64,000 nt of DNA from the NCBI GenBank assembly GCA_020466095.1, contig CM035806.1:38172683-38236682 (forward strand), read 5' to 3'. This document shows positions 22,829 through 60,878 of this stretch, one piece after another; position 1 is the stretch's first letter; each line of letters starts with the position of its first letter. The notes under the pieces are model-generated. The model had not been told where the DNA came from. It worked only from the letters and a program-made list of their open reading frames with translations, and did no database searches. The position numbers were made by a program, and so were the translations under genes. This DNA is from Chlorops oryzae. Its lineage: Eukaryota > Arthropoda > Insecta > Diptera > Chloropidae.

Positions 22829-24290
22829 ACAGGTTGGCTGATAAGTCCCCGGTCTGACACATAGATGGCGTCGCTAGTATTAAATTCATATTATTTTTAT
22901 ATAGTGGCAATCTTCAAATGATTCGTGTCAAAATTTGACGTCTGTAAGTCAATTAGTTTGTGAGATAGAGCGTCTTTTGTGAAGCAACTTTTGTTATTGT
23001 GAAAAAAATGGAAAAAAAGGAATTTCGTGTTTTGATAAAATACTGTTTTCTGAAGGGAAAAAATACAGTGGAAGCAAAAACTTGGCTTGATAATGAGTTT
23101 CCGGACTCTGCCCCAGGAAAATCAACAATAATTGATTGGTATGCAAAATTCAAGCGTGGTGAAATGAGCACGGAGGACGGTGAACGCAGTGGACGCCCGA
23201 AAGAGGTGGTTACCGACGAAAACATCAAAAAAATTCACAAAATGATTTTGAATGACCGTAAAATGAAGTTGATCGAGATAGCAGAGGCCTTAAAGATATC
23301 AAAGGAACGTGTTGGTCATATCATTCATCAATATTTGGATATGAAAAAGCTCTGTGCAAAATGGGTGCCGCGCGAGCTCACATTTGACCAAAAACAACAA
23401 CGTGTTGATGATTCTGAGCGGTGTTTGCAGCTGTTAACTCGCAATACACCCGAGTTTTTGCGTCGATATGTGACAATGGATGAAACATGGCTCTATCACT
23501 ACACTCCTGAGTCCAATCGACAGTCGGCTGAGTGGACAGCGATCGGTGAACCGTCTCCGAAGCGTGGAAAGACTCAAAAGTCCGCTTGGCAAAGTAATGG
23601 CCTCTGTTTTTTGGATGGGCATGGAATAATTTTTATCGATTATCTTGAGAAGGGAAAAACCATCAACAGTGACTATTATATGTCGTTATTGGAGCGTTTC
23701 AAGGTCGAAATCGCGGCAAAACGGCCCCATATGAAGAAGAAAAAAGTGTTGTTCCACCAAGACAACGCACCGTGCCACAAGTCATTGAGAACGATGGCAA
23801 AAATTCATGAATTAGGCTTCGAATTGCTTCCCCACCCGTATTCTCCAGATCTGGCCCGATTTTTCTTGTTCTCAGACCTCAAAAGGATCTCGCAGGGAAA
23901 AAATTCTAATGAAGAGGTATCGCCGAAACTGAGGCCTATTTGAAGAAAAAGTGTTGTTCCACCAAGACATGCACCGTGCCACAAGTCATTGAGAACGATC
24001 GTTAATAATTCATGTATTAGGCTTCGAATTGCTTCCACCACCACCTAATAACGAGATTTTGCCCCCAGGTTTTTTCTTGTTATCGACTTCAAACGTATGT
24101 CAATAATTAAATTTGTGCATAAATGATTCCAAACTGAGGCCTATTTTAGTCAAACCAAGATACCACATTGTATCAAAAATCGAAGTTTTTATCGACTTTA
24201 TCGCAATTTATAGTGTAACTTGTTGATAAAAACACACGATATTTTGAAAAAAATTTTTTTCATTTTTAACGGGATATCGCACTTTATGTC
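22829..24290 (+). mobile_element. irritans-subfamily mariner, mosaic of two copies
   Basis: The 5' terminal repeat ACAGGTTGGCTGATAAGTCC begins at 22829, directly after the TA target (22827-22828). The transposase frame runs to 23943. At about 23943 the sequence switches back: 23944-24045 repeats, with more divergence, the stretch already present at 23733-23830. It then continues as a strongly decayed mariner 3' end (ACTGAGGCCTATTTTAG at 24134 and beyond). The 3' terminal repeat is unrecognisable or reduced to a remnant near 24275-24290. The element therefore lacks a usable right end. Confidence 0.85.
23008..23943 (+). pseudogene. mariner transposase, damaged
   Basis: This is a cut-and-paste transposase of the Tc1/mariner superfamily, near-identical by memory to Himar1 of the horn fly over the first half. 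The start is the ATG at 23008 after GTGAAAAAA. The paired helix-turn-helix region (residues about 1-110) looks intact. Catalytic Asp residues are visible in VTMDETW and FHQDNAPCH, with the third in YSPDL. One Pro of the usual HPPYSPD is lost, so the D-D spacing is 33 and not the family's 34. Small indels after it remove APSD, garble the following residues and end the frame early at about 312 codons. A compensated frameshift also scrambles about ten residues near 23590 (SAWQSNGLCF). It is very probably inactive. Confidence 0.85.
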
Positions 24291-39333: not shown

Positions 39334-42100
39334 ATGCAGGTTATTTGGCGTGGAAGACGGTTCAATCGAATAGCTGACGTCATGCAAAGACGTTTGGCAA
39401 GCGTGGAGTCACAAAAGCATCCAGAAGAAACAATTCAAATTCCAAATAGAATACACCGCACGCCTACGTCGATTTTATATGCATTGTCGAGCACCGTTAA
39501 GCGTGATCCGACGGCACCTCACTATAAGTACCATGATGACCCTTACTTGATACCATCAACGAATATCGCCAAGCGCACCTACGCTTTGGCGCAAGAAGCA
39601 GGACGAAAAGCAGCCGAGTGGATAAAAGAGGACCTATGTATGTGTTCATGTGTGTAATGTTCAGCCCGATTCTGAATATTCCCGGAGAATTCACTTTTCT
39701 CGAGACTAAAATTCTCCTTTTTGAAATAGAAGGGAGAAGGGAGTACGTTGTATGGGAGTACGAGGGTAAGGAAAATTATGGGTATGGGTCAAATACGCAT
39801 TCCCCATCAAATTTCTTCCCCCAAATATATAAAAAAGATCAAGTGTACTCTTGAGAAAAGTAAGTTCGTTCCAGTTTCGTGCCACTTTAGAACTGCAAAT
39901 AACATTGCTGCCAATTGCGATCCATATGCCATAGCTGCGGCTTGCCATCATCGATTCCAGCGAAGAGAATAGCAACGTCGAAAGGACGACTCATTGCGGA
40001 GTCATCATCATCGCCACTATCACCGAATTGTATGGCTAAAGACGAGACTGCTTGGGCACAACACTCAATTGACATTCGTTCGTTGTAAACAAACCAATGA
40101 TTTTGGCATTCAACACGAGCACGTTCAATCAAAGTTCGTGCATCAGCCATTAGACCAGAAGTAGCGCAACCAATATGTTTGTCGACTTCCACAATCTTTT
40201 CGACCGTTGATGGTACCATCAGCGGAGAAGTAATGCGTTTTTCCACAGCAAGAACAATGCCTACAAAAATCAATTTGCACGTTAAAGGGAACTCGTTTCT
40301 CGAGAATATTCAGAATCGGGCTGCTTATTTGTACTAAGATTTGACATGAACCGATTTTTAACAATTGCTTTTTTTTTCTCTTGCGAATCAAGCTAACTTA
40401 TTTATGGTAAGTGAAGAACTTTTAATTGATTTAATGAGTATATTGAAATGTGTTTTCAACAGCATCAAGAAGCAGATCCACCAATCGAGGCGTTTGCACC
40501 GAAAATGGTATTTACAGAGGAAAGTGAGGTTAATGAGGAAATTCTGCATCGTTTGATACGGAAATCACGGGTCACTGATGCTGTGTTTGTTTATAATTTG
40601 CTTAAAACTAAGGGCGCGGAAATAAGTGCCGAGACAAAGCAAAGCATGCTGGAGTTAGTTTCATTCTACAATGATGAAGATCCCTTGCCCGAGCAGTATA
40701 TCGAAGAGCGGTGGTTCCGGCAAAGCTTTGCTCCACGTGATCGCTATCGCAAGACATGGAAAGACGGTGGATTGGCCGAGCAGCTATTTGCTGAAATAGA
40801 ACCAAAGACTATGCAATCATACGCTGCGGTTATACGCGGAATGTCTAAATTCTTTCAAGCGGAACGGGCCTATGCATTGTTTCAGGAAGCGACGGAGAAA
40901 CAGCTGCTATTCGATACAACAACCTATAATTCTGTTGTACAAATAGTAACTTTATTGAAGGACACCCCTGATCAACGTTGGGAGCTGTGCCTTGATCTAT
41001 TGAAGCAGATGGCACAGCAAGCAGTTAAACCAGATATAGGTACGATGAATGCATTACTGGAAGTTATTAGCTCTTTCGGCAATTTCAAATTAGCACGAAG
41101 CTGTACTTTAAAAGTATTGTCAGAGTTTAAACGACTTGGTATCGAACCATGCTTGGGTACTTATTACTTCGTGCTAATTAATTTCTGTCGTGAGCGCGGC
41201 CCAATCTCGCATGTTATTGTTGATATACTTAAGGAAATCGAAGGCAAAAGTTTCACACTTGAGCATCCAAAAGATACTTATTTCTTTGTTACCGCTATGG
41301 ACATATGTCGAAATCATCTCAACGATAAATCGTTGGCGAAGAAATTAGATACGCTGCTACATGTTGGCAATAACTACGACCTGATAGGAGACTCTTATAG
41401 AGAATCGGTGTACTATCGTCACTTTTTGGCGCTGCTATGTCAGACAGAGTCGTTTGATCAATTCATGGAGACATATGATCTATATGTTCCGAACATATAC
41501 ATACCAGAACCCGGTATAATGGAAGAAATTCTTAAAGCATTGGAATTGAATGGCGCTATCGATTACCTACCTCGTCTTTGGTCCGATATGATAATATTTG
41601 ATCATATTAATCGTGAAAGGCTCCTCAGTCGCACACTTAAAATCATGATCGAGAGTAATCCAGAACAATCCGAAGTAGCATCTCAAACATTGCCATCTCA
41701 ATTTGCTAAAATAGCATTGGATATTTACAAAAATGTCGGGGAGACTGATTCGTTCAGCGGAAGATTCAACAAAGTTACATTTACTGGGCAAATGCTTGGA
41801 GATATTCTTACCATATTAGTACGCGGCGGTGAATTCGAAAAATCTTTGGAAGTCTTTAAAAACATTGAAAAGAATCAGCATCGTATTCCTGGCACTCCAA
41901 CGGAAAATTGCCTGCTTGAGTTCACAGAAAGTTGCATTAATAATAAGACTCCTAGTGTTGCGCTCAATGTACTGCAATATGCTGCGGACAATAATATGGA
42001 CTGTTTGACTCTCGCTAAGAGGATAAACGATGGCTTCACATTAAGCGAAGTGCATTTATCAAAGATGAAGTCACTTGTCGGAAATAGTTTTGTGGAGTAA
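39334..42100 (+). CDS. mRpS39: PTCD3 / mitoribosomal small subunit protein mS39
   Basis: This is a pentatricopeptide-repeat protein of the mitochondrial small ribosomal subunit. My model is exon 1 39334-39637, a 14-nt microexon 40393-40406 and exon 3 40463-42100, giving 651 residues. GTATGT and GTAAGT donors and TCAAG and TTCAACAG acceptors keep the frame exactly. The join reads [22 protein letters not shown], and from memory the fly homologue has a similar spacer. The N-terminus ([13 protein letters not shown]) is basic, as expected for mitochondrial import. [11 protein letters not shown] and the [16 protein letters not shown] and GTMNALLEV helices fit PPR units. Human PTCD3 is about 689 residues. 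A 662-bp transposon lies in intron 1, which would otherwise be only about 93 bp. The gene is convergent with the DHHC gene, 149 bp apart. Skipping the microexon would not preserve the frame. Confidence 0.9.
39662..40323. mobile_element. gene-capturing (Pack-TYPE-like) DNA transposon in PTCD3 intron 1
   Basis: The perfect 20-bp inverted ends CAGCCCGATTCTGAATATTC start at 39662 and, in complement, end at 40323. Next to each end a CTCGAGA word is found (39700 and 40300). The 662-bp interior carries a fragment of the proteasome alpha-5 gene on the minus strand and no transposase. I see no clear target duplication (the flanks are ATGTT and CTTAT), so the superfamily is open. Because the ends are identical, the insertion looks fairly young. 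Confidence 0.75.
39920..40260 (-). pseudogene. Prosalpha5: captured fragment of proteasome subunit alpha type-5
   Basis: About 113 codons read without a stop from [15 protein letters not shown] through [29 protein letters not shown] and [15 protein letters not shown] to PQLWHMD. This is the central part of the 20S alpha-5 subunit, roughly residues 55-165 of about 240. Beyond HMD the frame reads unrelated residues and stops at 39887. Upstream on this strand the sequence is TTTTTGTAG followed by GC, an intact splice acceptor, so the piece was copied from the genomic gene including intron sequence. The N-terminal substrate-gate segment and the C-terminal half are missing, so it cannot make a functional subunit. 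Confidence 0.85.
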
Positions 42101-49789: not shown

Positions 49790-51115
49790 CACTAGGCAAA
49801 AGGTTGCTATTACTGTTTTCACGTTCCGTCATAAAAAGCGAGAAAGATAGAGCAAAGACCTAAGACGCGAACGTGAAAACACGTTTTTGCCAACTTTGAG
49901 TGGGCGTGGCACAAAAAGTAGGCGTGGCAGCGTTACGAAGTTGAACTTTTCCAACTTTGGGGCACAACAGTAAGCAATAAGGGTATTCACAAAGGCGTGT
50001 TAAAAAAGTTGGAATATCGGAAAATCGGAAAACTCCGACTTCTTAAAATTTTTTTAAAACTTTTTTTGTATCCTGCAGAACTTTCCTACTTTCCGACGTC
50101 TTTGTGAATACCCCTAATGTTCCGAATTTTAACACTGTGTGTTCAAAATTGTGGAATTTGGGTCCACCCTTTTTAGAGGGGTAGGGTTGGGATGGATAGA
50201 TTTCTAAAACTTTTTTTTTTAGTTTCATAGATATATTTGCAATGAAACGTCCATGCCAAATTTCATTACTATAGGGCAACTCCTTCTACCATTTGCCAAG
50301 AAATTTATGGAGGCCAAGCACTCTATCCTTACGCGTGATTTGTTTTTTTTTTTTTACCATTTTCCTCACATTTTTACTGGATATTAGTACTGAGAGCATC
50401 TATGTATATCGTTACCTTAATGTAGAAAGGCTCCAACTAACATTTTTTCCTAAACTCACTTTTTTGCATATTTCGATATACCGCCCCCAAATACACCATG
50501 ATAAAAAAATTTAGGTTCTTAGATCAAAACTAACGGATATACAATCATTTAAAAAAGAAGCCCTAACTGACTTCAAACACTTCTTTACACAAAAATCCCT
50601 AACTCACTTCTATTGTGGTAGTTAAATTTTACAGTTTTGGACCCACTGAGTTGAACTTTGGAACAGAGCTTACTGCTGTGCCCCAAAATTGGAATATTTT
50701 TGGGTTTTTTTATTTGGTTTTATTTCAGTTTTTTTTCTCCTGTAAAATTCTAAATTTGTTAGTTAGGGCCTTTCTACATTAAGGTAACGATATGCACTTA
50801 TGTTTTTATAATTAGGGGCGGTCCATTAATTACGTAAGATTTTTATTACTGTTTTCACGTTCACGTTCGCGTCGTAAGTCTTTGATCTATTTCACTCGCA
50901 AAGAGCGCTTGACCTCCATACATTTCTTGGTAAATGATAGAAGGAGTTGCCCTAGAGAGCAATGAAATGTGGCATGGGCGTTTCATTGCAAATATCTATG
51001 AAATTCCAAATAAAATTTCTGAAATCAAACCACCACAACCCCCTCCCTCATAAAATGGGGTGGACCCCAATTCCACAATTTTGAACACACAGTGTTAAAA
51101 TTCCTGTATTTAGGA
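49790..51115. repeat. complex inverted repeat of family B
   Basis: Left arm: a GTTTTCACGTTC..GAACGTGAAAAC block (49815-49882), a family B body (49890-50330) and GTTACCTTAATGTAGAAAGG (50410-50444). Right arm, inverted: CCTTTCTACATTAAGGTAAC (50771-50790), the GTTTTCACGTTC block (50849-50925) and part of the B body (50929-51111). The order of blocks is not a simple mirror, so there was more than one rearrangement. No protein-coding frame is visible. Confidence 0.65.
49981..50114. mobile_element. Harbinger-type MITE with TAA target duplication
   Basis: GGGTATTCACAAAGGCGTG at the left is matched by the complement GACGTCTTTGTGAATACCCC at the right. TAA flanks both sides (49978-49980 and 50115-50117). 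Family B copies at 28110 and 50929 lack it and serve as empty sites. 134 bp, no coding capacity. Confidence 0.8.
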
Positions 51116-59312: not shown

Positions 59313-60445
59313 TTATATTTTATATTTTCGATCGAGATTCACCATTCCAAATTGTAAGATTAAAACGACAAAATTTGCAGAGTATGCGACAAGAAAAATC
59401 CAAAATCCATTATTCAATTTAAACATTCCCAATATGCAGAATTCGAACCGCTTAAGCCAGAAAATATCGATTAGCTGCAATAAAAAAAAATATGTTTCAA
59501 TTAGTGAAAAAAGTTTCTATTCATCAAAATAAACCATACCCATACATCCTTGTCGCGTAGCATGCGATGGTGAAGCAGAGATCTCTTAACCCTCTCACGC
59601 TGAGCGCAGCAGCAGTGGGCCCCGACAATCAAGAAATATAAATCGACGAGAATAATAAAACAATTGAATCCTAATATAATCGGAAAACTTCCATTAAAAG
59701 CATAATAAAAAAAGCATGAAGAATAAGTATTACACCAGAAATGTACGAAACGTTGCAATAAAAAAATAAAAATGGCAATTTGAAAAACATGATTGAACTC
59801 CTTCATGCAATTCCAGATGGAACGCTCGAAATATAAAAATCTCTCAACTCTTTCGGGACTGACGGCGTTTTCAAGACCCTCTTCCAATCGCTTTAAAATC
59901 GTGAAAAAACAAAGGAAAATAACAAATATGTCCAAAGACAAAATACAATTCGTTAGATCCATATAAGTCAAACCAACGTAGGGCAAAACACTCAAAATTG
60001 GCATCAATTTCGCCATGTAATAAATCGAAAAAAAATTCATAGATAATCGGCTAACGGTTTGCACGATTTTCATAAATAAGAGAAGCAGCAACTTCCAATT
60101 GAATATTTCCAATCTGAGTTCAATCGCGTATTCGAGATGTCCAGCAAAGTCCGTTAACCACTTCGATAGTTGCTTCCGCTTCCAGAGTAATGTCAATAAG
60201 ATCAGCAGAAAAGCTGTAGTTTGCACAGTGTCTGTTATTATCAAACTTATAACGTAAACTTCTTCACCACTATGCTCAAACATAGTATGGTAGATATGAC
60301 TGTTGCCAAGAACGATTAACGGTGAAAATATTAAAGCACGATCCAGGATATTACGGCCCAAATTGTACACCATCCCTGTGTATAGAATACTCGAGCTCCC
60401 GCGATACTCACGCGGTGCCGAATACCTGGCGCCAAGGATAACCAT
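59313..60445 (-). CDS. insect gustatory receptor (7tm_7 family)
   Basis: This is a ligand-gated cation channel subunit of taste neurons with inverted seven-pass topology. Exons 59546-60445 and 59313-59474 join in phase 0 over a 71-bp intron (GTATGG donor, TATTGCAG acceptor), giving 353 residues; the family is usually 350-450. The first exon has hydrophobic segments beginning at about residues 35, 65, 115, 165, 225 and 260 and ends HHRMLRDKD. The second exon reads FEFCILGMFKLNNGFWIF..NFVVLILQF, where NFVVLILQF is a variant of the family signature TYhhhhhQF (Thr to Asn, Tyr to Phe). The phase-0 intron before the last exon is conserved in this family. Reading on past the donor would give a false end at 59501. 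The gene lies between two copies of a repeat. Which fly receptor it matches I cannot tell. Confidence 0.88.
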
Positions 60446-60878
60446 TGGCTAACAACAATCAAGGCGCCAAGTGTAAAAGAGAATATTTTATTGCACACGG
60501 AATGAGCTGAAGAAATTATTGATCAAACTTCGGAGCCGGTCGTGAATTTACTTGCCAGACATATTCAAGATTTGGAATTGCAAATAATCAAATTTCCATG
60601 ATAAAGGATGCGGATGTATGCGTCGAGCTACTTTTACGCTTCCTTGCTGAGCCAACGGACGAACAAAGAATTGCAATCCGGAAAAATCATTGACAAAAAA
60701 CATACATATTTCAGCTCATGGGAATATAAAGGACGTAGTAGCGGATTGATGGGCGATCTGATGGGCTGTCATGTTTGTTTATGCACCTGAAATTATTTAT
60801 GTATTACGAATGCATTGATCAGCGCCATTCGAATCTGTGAGGTCAAGCAAAAAACTGATTAAATTGAACTCATTATAT

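Follow-up and report, generated by a model that had tools for sequence, protein, structure and literature searches.

A Pack-TIR element carrying a proteasome Psma5 fragment, found once, within intron 1 of PTCD3 in the fly Chlorops oryzae

How a piece of a proteasome gene came to lie, between inverted ends, within an intron of a mitochondrial ribosome gene is the question raised by a 64-kb stretch of the Chlorops oryzae genome (64,000 nucleotides of contig CM035806.1, assembly GCA_020466095.1; hereafter the window). The host gene is PTCD3/mS39, the enclosed piece belongs to Psma5, the gene of the 20S proteasome alpha-5 subunit, and the two arms around it, each closing in a terminal inverted repeat (TIR), are those of a miniature inverted-repeat transposable element (MITE). 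The whole, whose parts are given in Table 1, is an insect case of the already known Pack-TIR kind, in which the arms of one TIR element surround a piece of host DNA.

The inverted ends of the focal element agree at 20 of 20 bases, as a sequence-only reading of the window had noted, with a chance expectation of 0.01 per window for such ends at three mismatches or fewer, and in 20 simulated sequences of 64 kb no inverted repeat of 20 bp was found with its two halves within 1 kb of each other. The window contains perfect inverted pairs of this length at several other places as well, with a total of 43 twenty-mers paired within 3 kb, so that such ends do not by themselves set the element apart. 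Recurrence of the ends elsewhere in the genome, set beforehand as a check, was found on searching the fly's own genome (442 Mb, 1044 contigs), with 967 exact copies of the 20-bp end, 488 on one strand and 479 on the other, and none of the reversed control. The arms of the element gave 85 matches (40 of the 1873 candidates being scored), with element positions 1-206 matching many loci and the best other copy among the candidates scored reaching 90% (L004/L011). Together with the gene model, this family of ends upholds the earlier view of a non-autonomous TIR element in intron 1 of PTCD3.

Most copies read are ~200–235 bp long, the length of a MITE. A total of 92 loci were scanned for pairs of ends (at most 5 mismatches, innermost pair taken), with 13 pairless loci left out and the 79 paired loci giving 77 distinct elements. 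The sample of loci comprised 37 places from the arm search, 30 loci from the end search with 20 more fetched, and two oddly spaced pairs, the end-search places being drawn from 100 of the 967 matches listed, all on C1, the contig that holds the window. The great majority of the paired elements (72/77) measure 260 bp or less, and the 3-bp flanks of these short copies are identical in 46, differ at one position in 15, and at two or three in 11, compared with agreement in 530 of 5112 pairings (~10% expected) when left and right flanks are taken from different copies. The family makes 3-bp target duplications, most commonly TAT (12) and ATA (11), a duplication length shared with the candidate superfamilies PIF/Harbinger and CACTA. 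Aligned with 16 empty copies, the focal element proves to be a MITE that lacks next to nothing, split at a single point ~37 bp from one of its ends. Its own flanks, GTT and CTT, form at best a 3-bp duplication with one mismatch, and no longer target duplication was found when lengths of 3–12 bp, a few mismatches, and shifts of the ends by up to 4 bases were allowed.

Within these arms, positions 40309-39887 of the minus strand are open for 140 codons, with residues 17-132 of the frame matching proteasome alpha-5 (best PDB E 8.5e-49; Pfam Proteasome 7.4e-27) and ~113 codons of the subunit present, in line with the central alpha-5 piece first read there. The first cargo piece (366 nt) is 95% identical to C2:7844306-7844675 (370 nt), with the second Psma5 gene, C1:4215655-4216001, the next-best match at 84%. 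The parent gene was not found within the 64-kb window and lies on C2, the two contigs being different and of chromosome size. The sequence-only reading had pointed to a splice acceptor, TTTTTGTAG, ahead of the coding piece, and had named an intron of the parent gene at the GIVLAVE border as a check; the C2 gene has a 63-nt first intron at exactly that border, and its tail is kept in the focal element as 24 nt with a 1-nt deletion, in letters that fit the C2 gene better than its C1 paralog, whose intron is 55 nt. As parent intron is present in the cargo, it was DNA that was copied, as had been supposed, and not cDNA, and a retrocopy is excluded. Both Psma5 genes of this fly (C2, within L009, C2:7841000-7848000; C1, within L010, C1:4212500-4219000) have open frames and short first introns, and over the captured part they differ synonymously at 43 codons and non-synonymously at 6.

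Over its 342 nt the captured exon has 12 substitutions relative to the C2 gene, along with an in-frame deletion of 3 nt. These differences, with the 1-nt deletion in the intron tail and far more changes relative to the C1 gene, show that the cargo is not a misplaced copy, and since the exons of PTCD3 and the two MITE arms all stand where they should, we give next to no credence to the suggestion that the assembly joined unrelated pieces and that no real insertion exists.

The second cargo piece has another source, with a 62-nt query matching 4 other places, the best being C1:158123551-158123599 at 96% over 49 nt. Loci L105, L106, L107, and L108 hold a small dispersed repeat of this donor type, its unit ~40 nt by eye and partly tandem. 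The letters GCAATTGG that follow the Psma5 break had been a candidate for a shifted Psma5 remnant, which was dropped in view of the letters of the parent and the match to the dispersed repeat. No inverted ends or target duplication were seen bounding the cargo, and no second copy of the joint cargo was found in the fly's own genome, where the Psma5 part occurs only in the focal copy, the two Psma5 genes, and one 46-nt piece (4 of 4 candidates scored). This last is a part of Psma5 exon 2 at 96% identity (positions 374-419 of L109, C2:65428700-65429500; that is, C2:65429073-65429118), and the 801 bp around it show no similarity to the MITE consensus. It has the look of a separate templated insertion, and bits of Psma5 can thus enter the genome without this MITE. 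A scan of separate collections of genome contigs and viral contigs with the element ends and Psma5 gave no relative, and the letters of the TIR, sought in published papers, gave 0 matches.

In a Pack-TIR, by definition, a host piece of 100–5000 bp is bounded on both sides by terminal sequence (10 bp or more) from one and the same TIR element; the piece has a single parent, to which it is no less than 90% identical at a length ratio of 80–120%, it is no retrocopy, and the parent copy has no transposable element within 100 bp. In the focal element, 20/20 TIRs and arms that align to 16 empty copies flank the host piece, the parent stands apart (366 vs 370 nt at 95%, next best 84%), 24 nt of parent intron speak against a retrocopy, and the nearest copy of this MITE to the parent exon lies ~3 kb away (7 kb read, for this MITE family only). 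The mobile, amplifying Pack-TYPE class is recognised by occurrence at more than one site and by its family's target duplication flanking the cargo-bearing copy, whereas the cargo-bearing element was found at one site only, between the flanks GTT and CTT. The view in the sequence-only reading that such gene capture is rare in animals is in need of an update, with 370 Pack-TIRs recorded in 55 of 100 animal genomes; in insect reference genomes the same survey records none, put down to the few TIR elements there, besides one Pack-TIR family in Drosophila melanogaster populations (PMC8277862). No insect Pack-TIR other than that family, Ssk-FB4, was named in our literature search, which is weak evidence of absence, subscription journals lying mostly outside it.

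The surveyed animal Pack-TIRs resemble the focal element in that the arms of one TIR element enclose a host piece traceable to a single parent; they are likewise formed at the DNA level, occur as single copies, and in some cases sit in host introns (PMC8277862). They belong mostly to hAT and Tc/mariner, whereas the focal MITE makes a 3-bp duplication, and the focal cargo, unlike theirs, has two sources (PMC8277862). Ssk-FB4 is likewise a fly TIR element with a host gene captured at the DNA level, but it is multicopy, mobile, expressed, and apparently functional, with 9–10-bp duplications, whereas the focal cargo is a fragment found once (PMC8277862). Plant Pack-TYPE elements and Pack-MULEs are also non-autonomous TIR elements with coding DNA (PMC8903248); the focal element, in contrast to them, shows no sign of spread. 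Helitrons and Helentrons carry gene fragments too, insects included (PMC4067079, PMC6544945, PMC3789558), and are without target duplication, having TC/CTRR ends or subterminal repeats with a 3' stem-loop (PMC4067079). A Helitron or Helentron reading was rejected in view of the full CAG...CTG TIRs, the 3-bp duplication, and a focal end that folds no better than shuffled sequence.

The sequence-only reading had proposed a family that shuffles host exons. This was not borne out, the cargo being found once and no second capture being recognised among the copies examined. The 72 short copies were judged cargo-free on length alone, and the five of the 77 paired elements longer than 260 bp comprise four that read by eye as MITEs interrupted by other elements (L055, 445 bp; L076, 1047 bp; L079, 1690 bp; L092, 422 bp), and a pairing of two weak ends (L086, 2237 bp). 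Genome-wide, three elements have exact 14-base ends 301–361 bp apart, two of which, L110 and L112, hold other elements by eye. No other gene capture was recognised in the 77 paired copies and these three. The third, L111 (C3:45220160-45220590), has a MITE end, an insert of ~200 bp without recognised origin, and a doubtful right end, and could be another capture. At L049, L052, and L066, exact MITE ends (at position 1501) lose similarity after 36 bp, 46 bp, and 28 bp respectively, with no partner end within 1.5 kb, nor in 5.9 kb more beyond L049; these lone ends may be truncated copies, other (long) captures, or the autonomous partner.

The six copies that look by eye to be interrupted by other elements (L055, L076, L079, L092, L110, L112) lend some substance to the idea that two unrelated events are seen at the focal locus, the Psma5 fragment having entered the MITE as part of some other mobile element. 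We regard this as improbable, as no inverted ends or target duplication are seen at the focal cargo, the Psma5 part is confined to this locus apart from the Psma5 genes and the 46-nt piece, and a retrocopy is ruled out by the intron tail.

The origin that we favour, with moderate confidence, is that of a Pack-TIR formed in place, the MITE arriving in PTCD3 intron 1 first and gaining its cargo later, when it was broken and repaired with template switching. The MITE would have jumped into the intron, a break would later have arisen inside the resident element, and its repair would have copied across switched templates, from the MITE to Psma5, on to the dispersed repeat, and back to the MITE. The single copy, the one break point within the MITE, the two templates in a row, and the possibly younger cargo fit such repair, to which Tan et al. 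(2021; PMC8277862) mostly ascribe single-copy animal Pack-TIRs under the term of in-place gap filling. The 46-nt Psma5 piece that lies apart from any copy of this MITE also counts in favour of this origin.

The main rival reverses the order: a MITE elsewhere would have taken up the Psma5 and repeat DNA, through switching at a replication fork or abortive gap repair, with the finished 662-bp element then transposing into PTCD3 intron 1, in the manner of Pack-TYPE elements. The intact, perfect TIRs, the GTT/CTT flanks compatible with a 3-bp duplication, and the position of the parent on another contig all suit this order, as does the MITE copy beside the parent gene (C2:7847615-7847844). That copy, however, matches the focal arms only in broken stretches of 72–87% (70% over one long stretch), compared with 90% for L011, and the C1 paralog too has a lone MITE end ~1 kb away, so the nearness of a MITE to the parent is not telling. 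Furthermore, the cargo-bearing element is found only once, its duplication is imperfect despite a young cargo, and that cargo seems younger than the arms; we hold capture before transposition to be possible but rather unlikely.

The relative age of arms and cargo was approached through the changes private to each. With the C1 gene as reference, the 12 substitutions between captured exon and C2 gene fall 5 on the cargo and 5 on the parent, with 2 unpolarised, all five parent-side changes being synonymous. Private changes in the MITE arms were counted at positions where the two nearest copies have the same base as 80% or more of the remaining copies, giving 11/174, compared with 5/342 in the cargo (p 0.005), or 7/342 (p 0.020). 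With three private arm sites at the cargo joint dropped, the arms stand at 8/171 against 5/342 (Fisher p 0.038). These counts hint, and no more, that the MITE may be older than its cargo.

Several observations weigh against the favoured reading. Assigning both unpolarised changes to the cargo turns the reduced comparison into 8/171 against 7/342 (p 0.10), and the private MITE changes may predate the insertion. The cargo-side changes, 2 non-synonymous and 3 synonymous, do not look clearly neutral. Additionally, the joints of the cargo show little microhomology by eye, and none that is clear, and the parent lies on another contig, unlike the majority of unique Pack-TIRs in the survey, of which 56.9% lie within 15 kb of their parent (PMC8277862). 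The marks at the locus agree with repair of a break inside a resident MITE no less well than with mobile capture.

The focal element is situated in a host gene whose model gives a spliced protein of 651 residues, with no gap across both joints in both of the mS39 alignments shown. A 14-nt microexon of PTCD3 is flanked by introns of 755 and 56 nt. As the cargo runs antisense to the PTCD3 transcript, and Pack-TIRs are reported to give rise to antisense and chimeric transcripts (PMC8277862), the captured piece might function at present, with putative small RNAs or cryptic exons arising from antisense Psma5 in the PTCD3 pre-mRNA. This we think barely probable, given that the host reading frame needs nothing from the element and that the cargo is changed at conserved residues, from S to C and, in RPFG, from G to D, with S and G kept by both paralogs. 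The wider proposal, that Psma5 is a recurrent donor of filler DNA, having given 366 bp to the MITE and, independently, the 46-nt piece on C2, and that its antisense copy in the PTCD3 transcript would also give small RNAs linking a mitochondrial ribosome gene to proteasome dosage, is very improbable. The element is presumably removed with the spliced intron and is probably neutral, and the captured exon would yield no protein of its own.

Another five frames overlap the focal element, and none of them matches a Pfam family up to an E value of 1. Elsewhere in the window, ~980 bp at 50124-51103 with inverted ends of ~35 bp and an inner inverted repeat are probably another DNA element, a mariner-type transposase frame lies at 22969-23943 (Pfam Transposase_1, E 1.4e-13), and a chemosensory receptor frame lies on the minus strand at 59501-60448 (Pfam 7tm_7, E 2.4e-8).

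Table 1. Parts of the focal element and of its host gene, in window coordinates.
Feature	Position	Strand	Basis or remark
Whole element, MITE with captured cargo (Pack-TIR)	39662..40323	.	662 bp; 20/20 TIRs, arms of the MITE family, middle from Psma5
Left TIR, CAGCCCGATTCTGAATATTC	39662..39681	+	967 exact genome copies, reversed control 0
Right TIR, identical to left TIR	40304..40323	-	20/20 match
Long MITE arm, nearly a whole empty MITE	39662..39870	-	inner border placed to within a few bases
Short MITE arm, 37 bp	40287..40323	-	best family copy 94.6% over 37 bp
Left target-duplication candidate, GTT	39659..39661	+	family rule is 3 bp
Right target-duplication candidate, CTT	40324..40326	+	family rule is 3 bp
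Captured part of Psma5 exon 2, 342 nt, in frame, GIVLAVEK to LWHMD	39919..40260	-	95% to C2 gene
Captured 3' end of Psma5 intron 1, 24 nt, acceptor TTTTTGTAG	40261..40284	-	aligned to C2 gene
Second cargo piece, ~48 nt, small dispersed repeat	39871..39918	-	repeat matches elsewhere
PTCD3/mS39 exon 1, coding from ATG	39334..39637	+	Pfam PF22330, gene model, mS39 alignment
PTCD3 intron 1, 755 bp (93 bp without the element)	39638..40392	+	gene model
PTCD3 microexon, 14 nt	40393..40406	+	restores the frame, which breaks without it; gap-free mS39 alignment
PTCD3 exon 3, rest of coding region	40463..42100	+	Pfam, gene model, mS39 alignment

The process at work here is a known one, seldom seen in insects, and the focal element is a clear single case of it. 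It provides a traced insect example, with the parent gene, the intron tail, the second type of donor, the MITE family, and the target-site rule all known, and it hints at a route by which coding sequence can come into an intron, through the repair of a widespread MITE in place.
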